From: Deltaproteobacteria bacterium
GTDB taxonomy: Bacteria > Desulfobacterota > Deferrimicrobia > Deferrimicrobiales > Deferrimicrobiaceae
NCBI GenBank assembly: GCA_016219515.1
Contig: JACRMU010000037.1
Location: forward strand, 1-35,991
DNA: 35,991 nucleotides
Direction of reading: 5' to 3'
Under the pieces are notes generated by a model that worked only from the letters and a program-made list of their open reading frames with translations, searched no databases and had not been told where the DNA came from. Shown one piece after another: positions 8,602 to 28,120 of this stretch (positions are counted from its first letter, which is position 1; every line of letters begins with the position of its first letter). A program made the position numbers and the translations under genes.

Positions 8602-9240
8602 TCATCTCCCCCGGCTCCATCCGTAGATGTTTGCGCAGGTCGCGGGGGACATCCCCAGGAAGTGTCCCAGGCGCAGCCCCCACATCAGCAGGATGGTTTT
8701 TCCGCGCCGGGTGATTCGCCGCGAGAACTCCACGTCCTCCATGAGCGGGGCCTCCGGAAATCCTCCTATCGTGTCGTGAGCGTTTTTCCGTACGAAGATC
8801 GCCTGGTCCCCCGTGTAGGCGCGGAAAAGGCGCGAGCGGACGCCGATCATCCTGCCGGTCAGCCGGAGGATCGCCTTCCGGTACGCGGAAGCCGAGGAGG
8901 AAACTCCGAGGCGGACGGAGAACGCCCCTCCCAGGAGGTCCCCTTGCCGCATCGCCGCACGGACGGCGCGGATCGACTCCGGGGGGAGCAGCGTGTCCGC
9001 GTGCAGGAAGAGCAGCACCTCTCCGGAAGATGCGCTTGCGCCCGCGTTCATCTGCGCCGCGCGGCCGGGGGCCGTCGAAAGGAAAATGTCCGCAAGGAGA
9101 CGGGCGGCATCCGGAGTCCCGTCCGCGCTGCCTCCGTCGACGACGATCACCTCGTCGGCCCCGGCCTCCCGCGCGGCCCGGATCGTTGCGGGCAGCGCCG
9201 TCTCCTCGTTGAGCGCGGGGATGATCACCGAGACCTTCAT
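8602..9240 (-). CDS. TIGR04283-type family 2 glycosyltransferase, apparently with an in-frame internal deletion
   Basis: The 212-residue product starts with a GT-A fold (VSVIIPALNEETALPATI), has the nucleotide-sugar-binding VVDGGSADGT and the metal-binding LFLHADT (DXD equivalent), and carries TGDQAIFVRK and GGFPEAPLMEDVEFSRR of the TIGR04283 family. After RRGKTILL the sequence jumps straight to MWGLRLGHFLGMSP. In relatives about 20 residues lie between (a VTSxRRWERxGxxRT-like segment ending in a hydrophobic LL before MW). The frame is kept, so a shortened protein would be made; activity is doubtful. ATG at 9240 overlaps the stop of the TVP38 gene (ATGA). A role in lipid or arsenosugar-related glycosylation is suggested only by the family name. 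Confidence 0.8.
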   Translation of the reverse strand: MKVSVIIPALNEETALPATIRAAREAGADEVIVVDGGSADGTPDAARLLADIFLSTAPGRAAQMNAGASASSGEVLLFLHADTLLPPESIRAVRAAMRQGDLLGGAFSVRLGVSSSASAYRKAILRLTGRMIGVRSRLFRAYTGDQAIFVRKNAHDTIGGFPEAPLMEDVEFSRRITRRGKTILLMWGLRLGHFLGMSPATCANIYGWSRGR

Positions 9241-19640: not shown

Positions 19641-21020
19641 ATGGCGGACGATAAACGCACTCAATCTCTTATGGACAAGGTGTGGAATTTCTTCACATCG
19701 CTGAAGCTTGCCATCACGGTCCTGATCATTCTCGCGGTGTCCTCCATATTCGGAACGATCATCGAGCAGAACCAGCCGATGGAGAAATACCAGCAGGTAT
19801 ACACCGACGCTTCCGTTCGGATCATGGATGCCCTGAACCTCTTCGACATGTACCACTCCTGGTGGTTCCTCCTTCTCCTGGTGCTGTTCACCGTCAACCT
19901 TTCCTGCTGCACCATCGACCGCCTTCCCCGGGTCGTGAAAATCGTCCGGAACCCGAAAACGACGCTCGACGAAGGGCTCGAGAAAAGCCTGGGGCTGGTC
20001 GACCGCTGGAAGAAGAAGGGGGCCCTGGACGCATGGGTCGAAAAGTACGCGGAAGCCATGGGGAAGGAGATCGGCAAACCGCGGGTGACGAGGAACAGCG
20101 ACATCGTCCACCTGTATGCCGAGTCGGGGGTCGTCTCGCGGTTCGGGGTTTACGTGACCCATCTTTCCATCGTCATCATTTTCATCGGCGCGATCGTCGG
20201 GAACGTGTTCGGCTACAAGGGGTACGCGAACATCCCGGAAGGGGGGTCGGTCCGGCAGATCCCGACGCGCGGAGGGACCCGGCCGGTCGATCTCGATTTC
20301 GAGGTGCGCTGCAACAAGTTCAGCCTCACCTTCTACAATGACAAGTTCGGGAACCCGACGCAGCAGCCGAAGGAGTACGCATCCGACCTGAGCATCATCG
20401 AGAACGGACGCGAGGTGCTCCGCAAGAAGATCGTCGTCAACGACCCGCTGCAATACAAAGGGATCTGGTTCTACCAGTCGAGCTACGGGCCGACGGGCGC
20501 CGCCACCGCACAGGTCGCGGTCGTCGACCCTGCGGGCGGCCCGGTGACGGGCCTTGCTCTCGCCGCGGGCCAGAAAACTGCTCTGCCGGGGTACGGGACG
20601 ATCACCGGCGTGGATTACCAGCCGAATTTCCAGGGATCCGGCCCCGCCCTACTGGTGGTCCTGGAGAAGCCGGGACAACCGCCCGCGCAGGTCTGGCTGC
20701 CGCAAGGAAAGCCCGACGTAGACCGCAAACGGAACGACCGGTACTTTTTCTCCTTCGGCGGGCTGACCCAGGGGTTCTTCACGGGCCTGCAGGTGGCAAA
20801 GGACCCGGGGGTGAATGTCGTGTGGGTGGGATGCACGTTGATGGTCATAGGCATCATCATCGCCTTTTTCATGTCCCACCAGCGGCTTTGGATCCGCCTT
20901 GCGCCATCCGCCGACGGGCGCGTCGAGATCGTACTTGCCGGGGCGGCAAGCAGAAACAGGCTTGCCTTCGAGAAGAAATTTGAGAAAATACAGGACGATT
21001 TCAAGGCGGTCTCCGCGTGA
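19641..21020 (+). CDS. resB: Cytochrome c biogenesis protein ResB (Ccs1)
   Basis: A 459-residue System II heme-ligation subunit. It starts with a cytoplasmic stretch and first helix (LKLAITVLIILAVSSIFGTIIEQ) and has helices near 75-90 (SWWFLLLLVLFTVNLSCCTIDRLP) and 170-190 (VTHLSIVIIFIGAIVGNVFG). A large periplasmic domain (about 195-385) includes the ResB hallmark DPLQYKGIWFYQSSYGP, and a last helix lies near 395-415. LSCCTIDRLPR and EFxGxxxQYxGI-like elements match the family. With ResC it exports heme and attaches it to CXXCH motifs, as required by the many cytochromes that follow. No CcdA gene is seen in the window. Confidence 0.93.
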   Translation: MADDKRTQSLMDKVWNFFTSLKLAITVLIILAVSSIFGTIIEQNQPMEKYQQVYTDASVRIMDALNLFDMYHSWWFLLLLVLFTVNLSCCTIDRLPRVVKIVRNPKTTLDEGLEKSLGLVDRWKKKGALDAWVEKYAEAMGKEIGKPRVTRNSDIVHLYAESGVVSRFGVYVTHLSIVIIFIGAIVGNVFGYKGYANIPEGGSVRQIPTRGGTRPVDLDFEVRCNKFSLTFYNDKFGNPTQQPKEYASDLSIIENGREVLRKKIVVNDPLQYKGIWFYQSSYGPTGAATAQVAVVDPAGGPVTGLALAAGQKTALPGYGTITGVDYQPNFQGSGPALLVVLEKPGQPPAQVWLPQGKPDVDRKRNDRYFFSFGGLTQGFFTGLQVAKDPGVNVVWVGCTLMVIGIIIAFFMSHQRLWIRLAPSADGRVEIVLAGAASRNRLAFEKKFEKIQDDFKAVSA

Positions 21021-21062
21021 TCGCCGTTTTTGTCCTGCCATCGCAACGGGAGCCGTAACGCC

Positions 21063-21902
21063 ATGCTGAATGTACGCCTCTTCGATTTGACAACCTTGTT
21101 GTTCGGCGCGGCGTCGGTTTGCTACGTCGCCGCCCTGTACGGAAAGAAAGACACGATTGCCCGCGTCGGAACGTGGATCTGCATCATCGCCGCCGTAACG
21201 TCCACCGCCGCCATCGGCGTCCGCTGGGCCGAATCGTACAAAATGGGGATCGGCCGCATACCGGTCACCAACCTCTACGAGTCGCTCGTGTTCTTCGCGT
21301 GGTCGGTGAACCTCTTCTACCTGTTCGTGGAGTGGAAATACAGGAACCGCACCTTCGGCGCCTTCGTCATGCCGATCGCATTTATCACCATGGTGTTCGC
21401 GTTCACCAACGAGAGCAGCATCCAGCCGCTGGTGCCCGCCCTCCAGTCCTACTGGCTCCATGCCCACGTGATCACCTGCTTCATCGGGTATGCGGCGTTC
21501 GCCGTCTCCGCCGGCGTGGCGGTGATGTACCTGCTCAAGGCGAAGCGGGAGGAGGCGAAGTCGGACGGCGGCGTGATCGGCCTTTTTCCCCCCACCAAGG
21601 CGCTTGACGACCTGGTTTACAGGTCCATAATCTGGGGGTTCCCGTTCCTGACCGCGGGGATCATCACGGGAGCGGCCTGGGCGAACTACGCCTGGGGGAC
21701 CTACTGGTCGTGGGACCCCAAGGAGACCTGGTCGCTGATCGTCTGGCTGGTCTACGCTGCGTTCCTCCATGCCCGTATCACCCGCGGGTGGCACGGACGG
21801 CGGGCCGCGATCCTTTCGATCGTAGGGTTCCTGGCGACCATCATGTGCTACCTGGGGGTCAATCTGGTGCTTTCGGGGCTCCATTCCTACGGAGGCTCAT
21901 GA
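21063..21902 (+). CDS. resC: Cytochrome c biogenesis protein ResC (CcsA)
   Basis: A 279-residue membrane protein with about eight helices and the heme-handling WWD motif WGTYWSWDPKETWSLI. Conserved histidines flank it (HAHVITCF before, LHARITRGWHG and SGLHSYGG after), as in CcsA, where they hold heme for transfer to apocytochromes. ATG at 21063 with GGGAG upstream was chosen over an in-frame ATG at 21030, which would add a non-family Cys-His start. It forms the System II synthase together with ResB, encoded 42 bp upstream. Confidence 0.93.
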   Translation: MLNVRLFDLTTLLFGAASVCYVAALYGKKDTIARVGTWICIIAAVTSTAAIGVRWAESYKMGIGRIPVTNLYESLVFFAWSVNLFYLFVEWKYRNRTFGAFVMPIAFITMVFAFTNESSIQPLVPALQSYWLHAHVITCFIGYAAFAVSAGVAVMYLLKAKREEAKSDGGVIGLFPPTKALDDLVYRSIIWGFPFLTAGIITGAAWANYAWGTYWSWDPKETWSLIVWLVYAAFLHARITRGWHGRRAAILSIVGFLATIMCYLGVNLVLSGLHSYGGS

Positions 21903-21950: not shown

Positions 21951-23249
21951 ATGCGAAAGTTTGTCGGTTCCATCGGGGTGGCCGTACTCATTCTGGGATT
22001 GGGGATTCTCTACAGCGGCGAAGCGCTCGCGGCGGACGCATGCGTGACCAAGGATTGCCACGCCCGGATGGGCAAGGCGGCCTGGGTGCACGGCCCCGTG
22101 GGGGTGATGCAATGCACCGTGTGCCACGGCGCCGGGAAAAAGGGACATCCGACGAGGCAGAAGCCGGACTTCCAGCTGGTGGCCACGGGCAAGGCGCTCT
22201 GCGAGAAATGCCACCAGCCGGTCGACAAGTTCGAGTTCAAGCACACCCCCGTACGCAAGGGGGAGTGCACCGGCTGCCACGACCCGCACCAGTCCGCGGC
22301 TCCGAAGCAGCTGAAGAAGGTCAAGACTTCCGAGCTGTGCTACCTTTGCCACAAGAACACCCAGCAGATTAAGAAATATCTCCACGGCCCCGTCGCCACC
22401 GGCGACTGCAACGTCTGCCACAACCCGCACTCCTCGCCGAATCCCCGCCAGCTGGTGGCCCGCGGGAACGACGCCTGCTTCCTCTGCCACGAGGACCGCA
22501 AGGCCGAGTTCACCCGGAAATATCCGCACAAGCCGGCGCAGGAGTCGTGCCTGAAATGCCACGACGCGCATAACGCGGACCAGCCCTTCATGCTGTCCGG
22601 CGAGGGGACGGCGCAGTGCCTCGCCTGCCACAAGAAGATGGCGGAGCAGCTCGCCGCGTCGCCCGTGAAGCACGGGGTCCTCCTGAAAAGCCCCTGCACG
22701 TCCTGCCACACGCCGCACTCTTCCGACTTCCCGCGGCAGTTGAAGGCGCACACCAAGGACATCTGCTACACCTGCCACAAGGACATGGGGGCGAAGGTCC
22801 GCGCCTCGAAGCGCCAGCACGGCCCGGTCCAGCAGAACGACTGCTATGCCTGCCACGACCCGCACGGGAGCAAGAGCCCGCTGATCCTGAAAAAATACTT
22901 CCCGGCGGAGTTCTACAAGCCGTACGCGACCGAAAGCTACGTGATCTGCTTCGATTGCCACAATAAGGACATCGCCCTGGACAAGATCACGACGAAGCTC
23001 ACGGGCTTCCGCAACGGCGACGTGAACATGCACTTCCTCCACGTGAACAAGGAGAAAGGCCGTTCCTGCAAGGCGTGCCACGAGGTCCACGCGGGCGACC
23101 AGGACAAGCACATCCGCAAGGAAGTGCCGTTCGGGAAGGCGTGGATGCTCCCCGTGCAGTACACCAAGACCTCGAACGGAGGGACCTGCGTGGTCGGCTG
23201 CCACAAGCCGAAGGACTACAACCGCGTCAACCCCGTGAAATACGAGTAG
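21951..23249 (+). CDS. Multiheme cytochrome c, doubled-CXXCH type (15 heme motifs)
   Basis: A 432-residue exported protein (signal peptide MRKFVGSIGVAVLILGLGIL...ALAA). It has 13 CXXCH motifs plus CVTKDCH (CX4CH) first and CVVGCH (CX3CH) last, about one heme per 28 residues. The body is built from repeats of the form HGPV..G.C..CH.PH.S..P..L, the doubled-CXXCH arrangement of cytochrome c3/NrfB-like wires. It is probably a periplasmic or outer-membrane electron conductor. It has a GGGGAGG Shine-Dalgarno and follows resC by 48 bp. It lacks a lipobox. No close named homologue can be assigned. Confidence 0.9.
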   Translation: MRKFVGSIGVAVLILGLGILYSGEALAADACVTKDCHARMGKAAWVHGPVGVMQCTVCHGAGKKGHPTRQKPDFQLVATGKALCEKCHQPVDKFEFKHTPVRKGECTGCHDPHQSAAPKQLKKVKTSELCYLCHKNTQQIKKYLHGPVATGDCNVCHNPHSSPNPRQLVARGNDACFLCHEDRKAEFTRKYPHKPAQESCLKCHDAHNADQPFMLSGEGTAQCLACHKKMAEQLAASPVKHGVLLKSPCTSCHTPHSSDFPRQLKAHTKDICYTCHKDMGAKVRASKRQHGPVQQNDCYACHDPHGSKSPLILKKYFPAEFYKPYATESYVICFDCHNKDIALDKITTKLTGFRNGDVNMHFLHVNKEKGRSCKACHEVHAGDQDKHIRKEVPFGKAWMLPVQYTKTSNGGTCVVGCHKPKDYNRVNPVKYE

Positions 23250-23258
23250 GAGAAGGCC

Positions 23259-24269
23259 GTGGGCCGGATCCGATATCGCGTTCCGCTGTTCGTTTTCACG
23301 GTGCTTCTGGTCCTGTTCTTCTCCACGGTGCCGGGCACGGGATCGGCGTTCCGGAACCTGAAGGAAGGCGCGCCGGCGATCCCCTTCATCCTCAAGGATT
23401 CCGAGGGGAAGGAGTTCGAGTTCAAGCCGGGCTCGGGAAAGATCACCGTCCTGTCGTTCGTGAAGCTTGCGCAGGAACGGTCGCGGGACCAGATCCGGGA
23501 CCTTGTCGATCTTCAGAAGGAGCTCGAGGCGAAGGGGGTGGACTTCCTCATCGTCTCGGCGTACACCGATACCCCCGACGACGCGAAAAAAATCGCCGGG
23601 GAGCTGAATGCAAGGTTTCAGATCATCCTGGACAGGGAACAGAAGGTCTACGGGGACTACGGGCTGTTCATCCTGCCTTCCACCGGCATCAGCGGGAAGG
23701 ACGGCAAGTTCGTCTTCGAGCATTCCAGCCACGGACGGGACTTCAAGGACGTGGTGGGGGGGAAGGTCAGGGTGCTCGTCGGCCTGTTGACGGAGGAGGA
23801 ATACAGGAAACGGATCACCCCCGTGGAATCCGTTTCGAAAAGCAAGGAGGAAAGCGAGGCCGACCGCCAGATCGCCTTGGGAAGGGCGTTGTCCAAGCGC
23901 GGGATGCACGACAAGGCGGCGGAGAAGTTCCTGAAGGCGCTCGAGCTCGATCCGAAGAACCTTTCCGGACGCATCTCCTACGGAGAGTCGCTGGTCGCGA
24001 TGAAGAAATACGACGAGGCGCTTCTCCAGTTCCAAAAGGCGAAGGAGCTGAGTCCCTCGAGCAAGGAGGCCCAGCTGGGCGTCGGCACGGTCTACCTCGA
24101 GAAGGGGGAGGTCGACAAGGCGATCCAGGAGATCTCCGGGGCGGCGATGCTCAACCCCAGGCCCGAGAAGGCGAACTACTGGCTGGGAGTCGCCTACGAG
24201 AAGAAGGGGGACCTTCCGAACGCGGTAAGGTATTACCGCAAGGCCGTCGAAAAGATGATCAAGGAGTAG
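23259..24269 (+). CDS. Thioredoxin-like (Cys-less) plus TPR protein, copy 1
   Basis: A 336-residue exported protein (leader VPLFVFTVLLVLFFSTVPGTGSA). Residues about 35-190 have the AhpC/TlpA redoxin fold (APAIPFILKDSEGKEFEF, DFLIVSAYTD, YGLFILPSTGISGKDGKFV with the cis-Pro region). At the usual WCxxC position the sequence reads FVKLAQERS, so it cannot do thiol chemistry. Residues about 205-335 are three to four TPR units (KFLKALELDPKN, QFQKAKELSPSS, EISGAAMLNP, YYRKAVEKM), a protein-binding scaffold. GTG start at 23259 after AGGAGAAGG. A chaperone or assembly role for neighbouring cytochromes is inferred from context and from the similar gene at 25000. Confidence 0.8.
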   Translation: MGRIRYRVPLFVFTVLLVLFFSTVPGTGSAFRNLKEGAPAIPFILKDSEGKEFEFKPGSGKITVLSFVKLAQERSRDQIRDLVDLQKELEAKGVDFLIVSAYTDTPDDAKKIAGELNARFQIILDREQKVYGDYGLFILPSTGISGKDGKFVFEHSSHGRDFKDVVGGKVRVLVGLLTEEEYRKRITPVESVSKSKEESEADRQIALGRALSKRGMHDKAAEKFLKALELDPKNLSGRISYGESLVAMKKYDEALLQFQKAKELSPSSKEAQLGVGTVYLEKGEVDKAIQEISGAAMLNPRPEKANYWLGVAYEKKGDLPNAVRYYRKAVEKMIKE

Positions 24270-24285: not shown

Positions 24286-24984
24286 ATGAAGATGGGAAAA
24301 GGGGCCTTGCAGGCCTTGGTGATCCTCGCGCTGATGGCGGGGGGGGGCTTCCTCCCCGCCATTTCCATATCCGGCGATCCCGGAACGCCGGGCCTTGCGA
24401 TCCTTGCGCCGTCCAAGGGGGCCCCGATGTCCGCGGGGCGCGCCCTGGTGATCGGAAAGGCGACGGGGGAAGGAATGAGGCGGGTGGAGATCGACGTGAA
24501 CGGCAAGGGGAAGCAGTCCGTCGCGGTGGCCGGGGGGGGATTCTCGGCGCCGGTGCACCTTTCCTCCGGCAGGAATGTCATCCGCGCGAGGGCCGGGGGG
24601 GCTTCGGCCGCCCTGGAGGTCGCCGTCTCCGCGAAAGGCGGGTACGCCTACCACAAACCGGTGGAGAAGTGCGCCGAATGCCACGGCTCGGCGGGAAAGG
24701 GGTATTCCGTGAAGGCGCCGAAGGACTCCGTGTGTTACCGGTGCCACGGCCGGATGGACGGGAAGAAGCTGGTCCACGGGCCGATGGGGAGCGGCGAGTG
24801 CACGGCATGCCACGACCCCCACGGATCGGCGAACAAGGCGCTCGCGGTGTCGCGGCACGACCTGCTGTGCGTGTCCTGCCACGACCAGAAAAGCTCCGCC
24901 GGGCACATCGCGAAGTCCAGGGGGAAGGCGTGCACGGCGTGCCACGATCCGCACTCGTCGGACAAGGTGTATCTGCAGAGATAG
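24286..24984 (+). CDS. Pentaheme cytochrome c with N-terminal beta-sandwich
   Basis: A 232-residue protein with a hydrophobic leader (ALQALVILALMAGGGFL) and an Ig-like beta domain at about 35-115 (ILAPSKGAPMSAG...VEIDVNG...SSGRNVIRARAGG). The C-terminal heme domain has five motifs: CAECH, CYRCH, CTACH, CVSCH and CTACH. The HGPMGSGECTACHDPHGS block matches the repeat unit of the 15-motif cytochrome. It lies between two Cys-less thioredoxin-TPR genes. ATG at 24286 has only a weak Shine-Dalgarno; 24292 is an alternative. The beta-sandwich may dock the heme domain to a partner or the cell surface (inference). Confidence 0.85.
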   Translation: MKMGKGALQALVILALMAGGGFLPAISISGDPGTPGLAILAPSKGAPMSAGRALVIGKATGEGMRRVEIDVNGKGKQSVAVAGGGFSAPVHLSSGRNVIRARAGGASAALEVAVSAKGGYAYHKPVEKCAECHGSAGKGYSVKAPKDSVCYRCHGRMDGKKLVHGPMGSGECTACHDPHGSANKALAVSRHDLLCVSCHDQKSSAGHIAKSRGKACTACHDPHSSDKVYLQR

Positions 24985-24999
24985 CGATTCGGGGGGGGA

Positions 25000-26133
25000 A
25001 TGGGGAGGTTGGGAAGGGCGGGGAGATTCCTCGCGTCGTTGCTGCTGTTCTTCGCCGGGGCCTGTTTCGCGCCGAAGGCGGCGGCGGCTTTCAGGAACGT
25101 CCAGGGAGGGATGGAGGCGCCCGCGTTCCGCCTGACGGACGTCGGGGGGAACGAGGTTTCCCTGGATGCCTACAAGAAGGAGAAGGCGGTGGTTCTCGTC
25201 TTCTTTGCGGTCTGGAGCAGCCGGTCGCTCGAGGAGCTTAAGGACGTCCAGAAACTTCTTTCGGGGATGGGACCGTTGGGGCTGAAGGCGATCGCCGTCA
25301 ACGTGGAGCACGAACAGATGACCGAGCAGGACCAAAGGGCGGTGCGGGAGAAAGTCGCCGAGCTCAAGCTCACCTTCCCGGTGGTCTTCGACAGGGGGCT
25401 GGAAACGTTCCGCGAGTACGGGGTGGTCGCGGTCCCTTCCACTGCCATCCTGGGCGAGGGAGGGCAGGTCCGAAGCGCCTTCAACGGCTATCCCACGTTC
25501 GCCTTCGCGGAGATGAAGGAGCAGGTGGAAACGCTGTTGGGCCTGAAGAAAACGGAAGAAACCGCAACGGCGGCCAGGAAGGAAACGGCGCATAAGCCCA
25601 ACCGTGTTGCGCTGTTGAACTACAATCTCGGGCGGCGGCTCTACCGTTCCGGGATGGCCGACAAGGCGGAGCCGAAGCTCAAAACCGCAGCGGGGGCGGA
25701 CCCGGAGTGGGCGGCCCCGCACATTCTCCTGGGGGAGATCCACCTCGCCAAGGGGAAAAAGGACCCGAAAAAGCTGGAGGAAGCCCGGAAGGAATTCGAG
25801 GCGGCGGTCGCGGCGGAGAGGGGAAACGCGGTGGCGAGGACGGGGCTGGCACGCGTATACTTCAAAACGGGCGCAGTGCCGGACGCGGAAAGGGAAGCCG
25901 GCGAGGCGCTGAAGGCCGCCCCTTCCTATCCGCCGGCCCTGCTGCTTTCGGCCGCCGTGCTCGCACGGAAGGGAAACCTTCCGGAGGCGGAGAAGCGGAT
26001 CCGCGGCGCTCTCGAGCTTTCCCCCCGGGACGCGGAGGCGCATGCCCTTGCGGGAAGCGTTTTCGAGGGCGCGGGAGAGCTTCGGAAAGCGGCGGAAATG
26101 TACCGGAAGGCATGGCAGCTGGGCGGCGAATGA
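25000..26133 (+). CDS. Thioredoxin-like (Cys-less) plus TPR protein, copy 2
   Basis: A 377-residue exported protein (leader FLASLLLFFAGACFAPKAAAA). The redoxin domain at about 38-185 has APAFRLTDVGGNEVSLDAY, VVLVFFAVWSSRS and VVAVPSTAILGEGG. The catalytic WCxxC is replaced by WSSRS, both cysteines lost, yet the fold motifs and cis-Pro (VPST) stay. About five TPR units follow from residue 205 (NYNLGRRLYRSGMADKAEPKL ... AGSVFEGAGELRKAAEMYRKAW). It shares domain order with the protein at 23259, so they are paralogues placed either side of the 5-heme cytochrome. A lipobox is weak (AGAC). A non-catalytic chaperone function is inferred. Confidence 0.8.
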   Translation: MGRLGRAGRFLASLLLFFAGACFAPKAAAAFRNVQGGMEAPAFRLTDVGGNEVSLDAYKKEKAVVLVFFAVWSSRSLEELKDVQKLLSGMGPLGLKAIAVNVEHEQMTEQDQRAVREKVAELKLTFPVVFDRGLETFREYGVVAVPSTAILGEGGQVRSAFNGYPTFAFAEMKEQVETLLGLKKTEETATAARKETAHKPNRVALLNYNLGRRLYRSGMADKAEPKLKTAAGADPEWAAPHILLGEIHLAKGKKDPKKLEEARKEFEAAVAAERGNAVARTGLARVYFKTGAVPDAEREAGEALKAAPSYPPALLLSAAVLARKGNLPEAEKRIRGALELSPRDAEAHALAGSVFEGAGELRKAAEMYRKAWQLGGE

Positions 26134-26152: not shown

Positions 26153-26293
26153 ATGAAGAACCGATGGCTCGCGTTTCTGATCACCGCGGCGGCGGGCGGC
26201 GCTCTCCTGGTGTACGGAATTTACCGCGAGGAGATCGGCGAGGTGCTGTTCAACGCCGCGATGCTTTGACTGTCCTGCATCGGGGTCGGGTGA
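26153..26293 (+). CDS. Candidate selenoprotein: small membrane UxxC protein (TGA at 26267-26269 read as Sec)
   Basis: A 46-residue protein if TGA 26267-26269 encodes selenocysteine, 38 residues if it is a stop. One membrane helix (WLAFLITAAAGGALLVYGIY) is followed by REEIGEVLFNAAML-U39-LSC42IGVG. This matches, position for position, the small family (I recall it as CD1871A-type) that ends GIYRGE..VL.KA..ICLECIGIG: its first Cys is replaced by the TGA and its second Cys and the IG(V/I)G end are kept. A SECIS-like hairpin follows. Ending at TGA 26291-26293 leaves 4 bp to the NapH-like gene, normal for an operon, against 28 bp for the short form. The spaced GGAGG at 26135 is the only Shine-Dalgarno. 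A membrane selenol-thiol redox role is inferred. Confidence 0.7.
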
Positions 26294-26300
26294 TCCCGTG
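26278..26300 (+). promoter_or_regulatory. Bacterial SECIS-like hairpin
   Basis: The stem is C26278-G26300 and A26279-U26299, a bulged U26280, then CGGG (26281-26284) with CCCG (26295-26298). The 10-nt loop begins G-U (26285-26286), 16 nt after the TGA. Bulged U, short upper stem and a G/U at the loop start are the features SelB recognises in the E. coli fdhF element. An alternative fold pairs CGGG 26287-26290 with the same CCCG. Confidence 0.5.
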
Positions 26301-27188
26301 AGATTCCTGAAGCGACGGATCTTCCAGGCACTGGGGACGCTGCTGCCCAACTCGTATCTCCAGGGGTTCTCCCTTTCCGTGGCCAACGGGGCGCTCAAGA
26401 TTTCGCCCGCCCTGTACCAGGGATCGCTGAAAAGCGTCTGCTCCCCGCTGTTGAACTGCTATGCCTGCCCCTCGGCCCTGTTCTCCTGCCCGATCGGAAC
26501 GCTCCAGCACTTCATGGTGACCGGGAACTTCCCGTTCTACGGCGCGGGGACGCTTGCCCTCATCGGCGCCACGGTGGGCCGGATGACGTGCGGCACCCTC
26601 TGCGCCTTCGGGTTCCTGCAGGACCTTCTCTACAAGTTCCGCAGCTGGAAGGTTTCGATCCCGGTCTGGACCCGTTATCTCCGGTATGCCGTCCTGGCCC
26701 TCCTCGTTTTCCTGATCCCCTACCTCACGCACGAAAACTGGTTCTCCAAGCTGTGCCCCATGGGTACGATGATCGGGGGGCTGACGTGGGTGACTCTCGA
26801 CCTGAACGTCCGCTCGATGATCCGCTACCTCTTCTGGATAAAAATCTCCATTCTGCTCTTCTTCGTGACCACGTCGCTCATGGTCAAGCGCCCGTTCTGC
26901 CGGGCGATCTGCCCGCTGGGGGCGGTCTTCTCCGTTTTCAACAAGTCCAGCTTCCTCCAGCTCGCATGGAACCCCGATACCTGCACCCGTTGCGGGAAGT
27001 GCCGGAAGATCTGCCCCGTCGACATCCGGCCCGACCGGAACCCGACGAACCCGGATTGCCTGCGGTGCCTGGACTGCACCCGCTGTCCCAGTCTGAAGCT
27101 TACGACCGTATTACATAGAAACCCGTTCGCCGCGCCTGCGGGGGGAGGCCAGGGGCCGGCGGGGATCGAGGAGGTACTTGCCCGTTGA
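26298..27188 (+). CDS. NapH-like 4Fe-4S membrane protein
   Basis: A 296-residue polytopic protein with about four or five helices and cysteine clusters of the NapH/RnfH-like family: CYACPSALFSCPIG, MTCGTLCAFGFLQD, KLCPMGT and FCRAICPLGA. Two C-terminal ferredoxin-type motifs follow (CTRCGKCRKICPVD and CLRCLDCTRCPS). Such proteins move electrons from quinol or ferredoxin across the inner membrane to periplasmic acceptors. GTG at 26298 follows the selenoprotein stop by 4 bp, suggesting translational coupling. In other bacteria the small CXXC family is found next to this type of protein (from memory), so the two may form a membrane reductant-delivery pair. The stop overlaps the next gene (TTGA). 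Confidence 0.85.
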   Translation: MRFLKRRIFQALGTLLPNSYLQGFSLSVANGALKISPALYQGSLKSVCSPLLNCYACPSALFSCPIGTLQHFMVTGNFPFYGAGTLALIGATVGRMTCGTLCAFGFLQDLLYKFRSWKVSIPVWTRYLRYAVLALLVFLIPYLTHENWFSKLCPMGTMIGGLTWVTLDLNVRSMIRYLFWIKISILLFFVTTSLMVKRPFCRAICPLGAVFSVFNKSSFLQLAWNPDTCTRCGKCRKICPVDIRPDRNPTNPDCLRCLDCTRCPSLKLTTVLHRNPFAAPAGGGQGPAGIEEVLAR

Positions 27189-28120
27189 AGTCCGCGAAAT
27201 GGTTCCCGTATCTCCTGCTACTCCTGTCTCTTGCGCTGCCGACCGCCGCCGCCGAGGACACGGTCGTCCTGTTCCCGCCGGATTTGACCCTGGCGAAGGA
27301 GGGGAAGATCAAGATCTTCGCGTTCCGCGCCGGCGGGGGCCCTGTTCCCGTCGCGGTGAACGGGGCAGGGAAAGATCCTCTGAAGGGGGACGCGCTGCAA
27401 AGCGGCCAGGCGGACCTGTCCCCCGGCATGAACCTCCTGGACGTGGGGGGGAAGCCCATCCGGGTCTACTACATGGCCAACGCCGGTGCGGACCGGCTTC
27501 GCATTCTCCCTGAAAAGGGCGACGCTACGCTGGAGTTCCAGGCGTATCGCATCCACCCCGCCCTGGAAGACGGCTGTGAGGGGTGCCATGCCGTCGACGG
27601 CGGAAAGTTGAAGGCGAAGGGGCAGAAAGAGGCATGTTACGCGTGCCACGATAATTTCGAAAAGCAGGAAGAGGGGAAAAAGAAATACGTTCATTCCCCC
27701 GTCGCCGCCGGGGAGTGCACGGGGTGCCACGATCCTCATTTTTCCGCCCGCTCCAAACTTCAGAAGCTGGAAAAGGGATGTCTCGAATGCCACGATGCGC
27801 CGGCGGAGACGGGGTCCGTCCATTACCCCGTCCGGGAACGGCAGTGCATCGCATGCCACGGTCCCCACGCAAGCAACGCTCCCAGGCAGCTCGTCCGCTC
27901 CGGAAACGACCTGTGCCTGGGGTGCCACGGGAATCCGCGCTCGCATCATCCGTTCGGAGCCAAGGGGAAGCAGCAGGTGGTTGCCCTGGTACCCCCGGAC
28001 ATTCCGAGGAACAGCGAACAGTTTTCGTGCCTTGCCTGCCACCTTCCGCATCAATCCGCGGAGCGGCGTCTCTTCCGCAAGAGCCAGGGGGATTTATGCA
28101 GAACCTGCCACCCGATCTGA
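27185..28120 (+). CDS. Octaheme cytochrome c with N-terminal beta domain
   Basis: A 311-residue exported protein (MKSAKWFPYLLLLLSLALPTAAA). Residues about 22-115 form a heme-free beta-rich domain (VVLFPPDLTLAKEG, VAVNGAGKD, GKPIRVYYMANAG). Then come eight CXXCH motifs: CEGCH, CYACH, CTGCH, CLECH, CIACH, CLGCH, CLACH and CRTCH, the last at the very C-terminus. The repeats HSPVAAGECTGCHDPHFS and HYPVRERQCIACHGPHASN relate it to the cytochromes at 21951 and 24286. TTG at 27185 overlaps the upstream stop by 4 bp. Probably periplasmic. The shared architecture with the 5-heme protein suggests a common origin. Confidence 0.87.
   Translation: MKSAKWFPYLLLLLSLALPTAAAEDTVVLFPPDLTLAKEGKIKIFAFRAGGGPVPVAVNGAGKDPLKGDALQSGQADLSPGMNLLDVGGKPIRVYYMANAGADRLRILPEKGDATLEFQAYRIHPALEDGCEGCHAVDGGKLKAKGQKEACYACHDNFEKQEEGKKKYVHSPVAAGECTGCHDPHFSARSKLQKLEKGCLECHDAPAETGSVHYPVRERQCIACHGPHASNAPRQLVRSGNDLCLGCHGNPRSHHPFGAKGKQQVVALVPPDIPRNSEQFSCLACHLPHQSAERRLFRKSQGDLCRTCHPI

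Follow-up and report, generated by a model that had tools for sequence, protein, structure and literature searches.

Very probable selenocysteine in a 46-residue CD1871A-family protein encoded beside a NapH-like gene and System II cytochrome c maturation genes

A short reading frame on contig JACRMU010000037.1 runs into a TGA codon, continues in frame for a few residues that end in a Cys-containing tail, and stops immediately before a gene for a NapH-like membrane protein. Is this TGA a stop codon or a selenocysteine (Sec) codon, and what might so small a protein do beside its NapH-like neighbor? The window analyzed is a 35,991-nt stretch of this contig, and all coordinates are given in window numbering. 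The mini-gene and its partner consist of the following features.

26153..26293, + strand: mini-selenoprotein gene (translation; NF040920; 38 TGA and 62 Cys homologous loci; AF2 model)
26267..26269, + strand: in-frame TGA, very probably read as Sec (aligned with the first Cys of CXXC in every homolog; Sec machinery present)
26282..26297, + strand: SECIS-like hairpin GGGGUC-GGGU-GAUCCC (comparative pairing, TGA versus Cys forms)
26291..26293, + strand: true stop codon TGA, within the hairpin (codon conserved in Sec forms)
26298..27188, + strand: NapH-like polytopic membrane protein, 2[4Fe-4S] (TIGR02163, E = 7.5e-16; PF12801)

From the ATG at 26153, positions 26153 to 26293 translate as MKNRWLAFLITAAAGGALLVYGIYREEIGEVLFNAAML-U-LSCIGVG*, where U is the TGA at 26267 to 26269. 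The product has 46 amino acids with Sec39 in a UxxC motif and terminates at the TGA at 26291 to 26293, and the NapH-like gene opens at GTG 26298, 4 bp past that stop. A preliminary description had read the frame in this way, from ATG 26153 through TGA 26267 and L-S-C-I-G-V-G to a stop 4 bp before the next gene, and had assigned the protein to the CD1871A family; translation confirms the first claim and profile searches the second. NCBIfam model NF040920 (CD1871A) matches residues 10 to 46 (E = 1.7e-7), so that both the TGA and the tail are covered. The match covers profile positions 2 to 38 of 38 and scores 31.0 to 31.1 bits against a cutoff of 32, and each of the 22 scanned members of the window's class matches NF040920 alone. 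CD1871A proteins carry CXXC after one transmembrane (TM) helix; here UxxC stands for CxxC, and the C terminus is IGVG.

The mini protein has a single N-terminal TM helix and the C-terminal sequence LSCIGVG. Its AF2 model contains helices at residues 2 to 23 and 28 to 42 (pLDDT 75), and no relatives were found among solved structures. Invariant positions in the alignment are M1, G22, E27, N34, C/U39, L40, C42, I43, G44, and G46. Without readthrough the tail is lost and the CXXC is gone, so that a gene caller halting at the TGA yields an unremarkable 38-residue helix; automatic annotation would cut the protein at residue 38.

The preliminary description had set the TGA exactly at the first Cys of a conserved CXXC and had proposed examining this codon in relatives and looking for selA, selB, selC, and selD in the genome. 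Among 100 unique homologous loci, only TGA (38 loci) and the Cys codons TGC and TGT (62 loci) occupy the first-Cys position, while the second Cys of the motif is Cys in all 100 and the LSCIGVG tail is kept. Reading of UGA as Trp is ruled out, since homologs have Cys at this position and never Trp. A homolog is encoded by 24 of the 26 genomes in the window's class; 19 have TGA at this codon, and five have only TGC or TGT. One genome (G018) has both a TGA copy and a TGC/TGT copy. The latter (L148) is an orphan beside the Sec copy, and the usual neighbors were not detected around it. A profile search across the phylum gave matches in 90 of 395 genomes, and any stop within a match was TGA. The tails following the TGA in the 38 TGA loci are written in 23 different codon strings that encode essentially one peptide, with Leu specified by four codons and Ser by both the TCN and AGY families. 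This mostly synonymous variation argues for protein-level selection on the tail.

All components of the Sec machinery that had been proposed for the search were found in the window's genome: SelA (577 bits), SelB (638 amino acids, over the cutoff), SelD (327 bits), and tRNA-Sec (74.8 bits versus a cutoff of 47). The two findings that the preliminary description had named as refuting, a genome lacking sel genes and close relatives with random sense codons and no conserved tail, are thus both contradicted. SelD has an in-frame TGA of its own, in the active site CAGUASK. At the SelD locus (L017, about positions 1500 to 1580), a G-rich stretch past the SelD TGA is able to form a stem-loop. SelA scored above the cutoff in 32 of 36 TGA genomes; the four in which a match was absent are 62 to 91% complete. 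In the window's family, SelA is present in 17/17 TGA genomes and missing from 3/5 Cys-only genomes (hypergeometric P of about 0.0065, computed by hand). Across the phylum, SelA presence is uninformative as a discriminator because it was also found in 41 of the 44 Cys-only genomes that were searched.

A hairpin with a bulged U had been described as starting right after the TGA. A hairpin downstream of the TGA does exist, but it begins about 12 nt past that codon and covers the true stop codon and the 4-nt gap, and the supposedly bulged U has a possible pairing partner in the A of the stop codon. Among the 38 TGA forms, bases 15 to 30 after the T of the TGA fold as GGGGUC-GGGU-GACCCC or near variants, with a 3' arm that combines the last part of the true stop codon with the four nucleotides that come next. 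In the window, a C26281-G26298 pair lengthens the stem to 7 bp. The outer four pairs, which join coding to post-stop sequence, are complete in 35 of 38 TGA forms versus 2 of 62 Cys forms. When TGA forms were given random Cys-form tails as a control, a mean of 6.2 of 38 were paired, with a maximum of 16 in 20,000 draws. Across 33 sequences, 96% of cells are paired, whereas sliding the partner lowers this share to 68% or less. Variant hairpins still pair, as GGAG/CUCC in L052 and as GGGUUA-GGC-UAACCC, or with UGACCC as the 3' arm, in L093 to L095. Strict compensatory change is seen at one of the six pairs only, in sequences that are related. Folded as a single sequence, the window hairpin is ordinary relative to shuffles (z = −0.63); the evidence for the hairpin is therefore comparative, and single-sequence folding is uninformative as proof of a SECIS.

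The hairpin loop begins with GG, 18 nt downstream of the UGA, which resembles the spacing in a SECIS such as that of Escherichia coli fdhF, and hairpins with a GG-opening loop at this distance occur in nearly all TGA forms but are rare in Cys forms. An Rfam scan of the window returned tRNAs only. Of the 38 Sec forms, 34 have TGA as the true stop and the other 4 have TAA, and the Cys forms have TGA, TAA, or TAG at the same place in 59 of 62. In most Sec forms (34/38), then, one UGA is recoded and the next UGA, 24 nt on, terminates inside the hairpin. It is exceedingly improbable that TGA 26267 is an ordinary stop that leaves a 38-residue helix and a relic of similarity downstream: TGA does terminate many genes of this genome, the mini-gene itself included, but the tail is conserved as protein with synonymous variation in 38 TGA loci, no homolog has TAA, TAG, or another sense codon at the site, the hairpin tracks TGA forms and not Cys forms, and the Cys-form frames end at the same G-x-G. 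We are thus nearly certain that TGA 26267 encodes selenocysteine, and the mini protein is very probably a real selenocysteine protein that is conserved across dozens of related genomes.

The preliminary description had also coupled the mini-gene to the NapH-like gene, and this pairing holds well beyond the window. Whether the mini-gene is a Sec or a Cys form, the NapH-like gene lies 3' of it on the same strand in nearly all loci, mostly within 0 to 100 bp. The NapH-like protein of the window scores 58 bits with TIGR02163 (NapH/MauN), under the subfamily cutoff of 213, which makes it homologous and NapH-like but not classed as NapH. An alignment of 54 homologs contains invariant Cys residues, with two CX3C(P) motifs and the 2[4Fe-4S] domain kept, and an N-terminal segment C-x2-C-x6-C that usually has an extra Cys ahead of it, giving (C)-x6-C-x2-C-x6-C. 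A search of solved structures with the NapH-like protein returned ferredoxin-domain matches only, and Foldseek with its model found no fold match with an E value under 0.001. Profile searches found no DsbD_TM or thioredoxin-fold CXXC match in either the mini protein or the NapH-like protein.

In a quick, midpoint-rooted tree of the NapH-like partners (88 sequences, with SH-aLRT as the only support measure), the Sec label has to change three times, versus a mean of 24 for shuffled labels. On the simplest reading of this sequence tree, the Sec-linked NapH-like proteins would form one clade with two Sec-to-Cys reversions in the window's family. Sec and Cys copies coexist in families f23, f89, and f97, where their NapH partners fall in separate clades.

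The mini-gene and NapH-like gene of the window lie among genes for System II cytochrome c maturation and multiheme cytochromes, as follows.

19641..21020, + strand: ResB, System II cytochrome c maturation (PF05140, E = 5e-104)
21030..21902, + strand: CcsB/ResC, System II cytochrome c maturation (TIGR03144, 292 bits, cutoff 187.6)
21951..23249, + strand: multiheme cytochrome c (TIGR01905, PF09699)
23259..24269, + strand: ResA/AhpC-TSA-like domain plus TPRs, without CXXC (LAQERS) (PF00578)
24286..24984, + strand: multiheme cytochrome c (TIGR01905, PF09699)
25000..26133, + strand: ResA/AhpC-TSA-like domain plus TPRs, without CXXC (WSSRS) (PF00578)
27185..28120, + strand: multiheme cytochrome c, directly after the NapH-like gene (TIGR01905, PF09699)

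ResB and/or CcsB is found upstream in 23 of 33 Sec loci with wide flanks, several of the others ending at contig edges; the linked loci belong to families f1, f2, f23, f46, and f89. A bare ResB-CcsB-mini-NapH unit is present in at least seven genomes. CXXC was seen in no homolog of the ResA-like protein at 23259 to 24269, and that at 25000 to 26133 has a WSxRS-type active site in nearly all homologs and CXXC in none. With CXXC missing from the ResA-like proteins encoded in these operons, UxxC is the dithiol-type center conserved beside ResB-CcsB. Five Cys loci outside the window's class, checked with wide flanks, have the NapH-like gene without ResB or CcsB, indicating that cytochrome maturation is not the role of the whole family. 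Around Cys forms outside the class (L058 to L130), inspection by eye often found an RdgB-like gene 3' and in some cases an MTH1187-like (thiamine-binding) gene 5', which suggests that the role of these Cys forms differs from that of the ResB-CcsB-linked Sec forms. Extra Sec copies in families f23 and f89 adjoin a TlpA-like protein with CVAC and multiheme cytochromes. Two second Sec-form copies, L165 (TGA at 9055) and L170 (TGA at 9025, reverse strand), adjoin a CVAC TlpA-like protein and multiheme cytochromes, and the usual NapH order is missing from them.

In System II, CcdA or DsbD carries reducing equivalents across the membrane to ResA/CcsX, which reduces the apocytochrome CXXCH (PMC4222556), and a role as modular electron carriers that span the membrane and serve respiratory enzymes has been put forward for NapH-like proteins (PMC8238504). 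The ResB-CcsB context points to a more specific electron-transfer role than the preliminary description could state, and for the UxxC/NapH-like pair we infer a topology, an electron path, a direction, and a client. SelB bound to the hairpin at 26282 to 26297 would insert Sec at UGA 26267, and the UGA inside the hairpin would end translation. The UxxC pair would lie where the second helix ends, on its C-terminal side, and a periplasmic orientation is predicted for it from the N-terminal KNR under the positive-inside rule. Electrons from the cytoplasmic side may travel along the [4Fe-4S] clusters of the NapH-like protein, reach its Cys-rich N-terminal segment, and pass from there to UxxC, where the Se-S/dithiol pair would act as a periplasmic thiol reductant. 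Its likeliest client would be the apocytochrome c CXXCH, reduced ahead of heme attachment by ResB-CcsB; a TlpA-like relay is an alternative client. The NapH-like protein and UxxC would thereby take over the job that usually falls to CcdA plus ResA.

We lean toward this model as a whole, namely, a single-pass CD1871A selenoprotein with hairpin-directed Sec that serves as a NapH-fed periplasmic reductant with apocytochrome as its client. The broader proposal that it constitutes a selenium-dependent branch of System II, in which NapH-like FeS protein and UxxC replace the CcdA-ResA route in multiheme-cytochrome-rich bacteria, is put forward tentatively. CcdA had been called absent, which is true of the locus only; the genome does contain it, since another contig has a DsbD_TM match of 149 bits whose neighbor is a TlpA-like protein carrying WCPYC. 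The UxxC/NapH pair is therefore not the only possible route.

Multiheme cytochromes surround the mini-gene, and the modular electron carriage proposed for NapH-like proteins (PMC8238504) would equally suit a respiratory chain in which the pair feeds these cytochromes instead of reducing thiols. We consider this unlikely, as a UxxC pair implies thiol chemistry and the minimal ResB-CcsB-mini-NapH unit occurs without cytochromes in several genomes. The same ResB-CcsB linkage, together with the view that uncharacterized selenoproteins are mostly redox active (PMC13188914), would fit a Sec protein that supplies the electrons to maintain heme iron in its reduced state within the ResB-CcsB channel, or that protects against peroxide, and does not act on apocytochrome thiols; the mini protein has no conserved heme-binding residues, and the probability of such a role appears to be small. 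NapH homologs are considered quinol linked (PMC8238504), so the direction of electron flow is uncertain. An oxidizing pair that, like DsbB/VKOR, draws electrons from thiols of the periplasm and delivers them via the NapH-like protein to the cytoplasm or the quinone pool is nevertheless improbable, given that the neighboring ResB-CcsB and TlpA-like proteins need reductant. A periplasmic thiol reductant is the role that we favor for the pair.

Compared to known systems, the window protein resembles CD1871A (NF040920) in its size, its one TM helix, and its C-terminal CxxC-IGxG. It differs in that Sec takes the place of the first Cys at 38 of the 100 loci, in having LU where the family mostly has IC or VC, in the hairpin, and in the linkage to System II. 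The CcdA/DsbD plus ResA/CcsX branch (PMC4222556) is alike in its ResB and CcsB neighbors and in the proposed delivery of electrons to a periplasmic dithiol for apocytochrome c. The proteins are unrelated in sequence, with an FeS NapH-like protein and UxxC here versus a Cys-only CcdA and a thioredoxin fold there. Flavinylation-associated NapH-like systems (PMC8238504) likewise use an FeS membrane protein (PF12801) to move electrons across the membrane, whereas the NapH-like protein here has no FMN-binding domain and its partner is a UxxC mini protein. TsoA (NF045695, LULAXC) shares the LUL string around Sec but is a 144-position family. Membership in TsoA was rejected: NF045695 has no match in the window's genome (nor in control genomes), and the members match only NF040920.

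NF040920 is not among the 119 prokaryotic selenoprotein families and subfamilies of a 2026 catalogue (PMC13188914) and is missing from the deep-Sep list (PMC12013277). The literature searched yielded no paper naming CD1871A, and reports on selenoproteins with NapH, with ResB/CcsB, or with Geobacter CXXC proteins contained nothing on the CD1871A family. The mini protein thus appears to represent a Sec subfamily of the known Cys family CD1871A and an uncatalogued selenoprotein family, among the smallest. The link between selenium and cytochrome c maturation is a new observation, and the uncharacterized CD1871A/NapH-like pair acquires a role open to testing, that of a thiol reductant working across the membrane. 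With its sister Cys lineages and two Sec-to-Cys reversions, one of them accompanied by loss of SelA, the family would offer a natural experiment on the reasons for using Sec.
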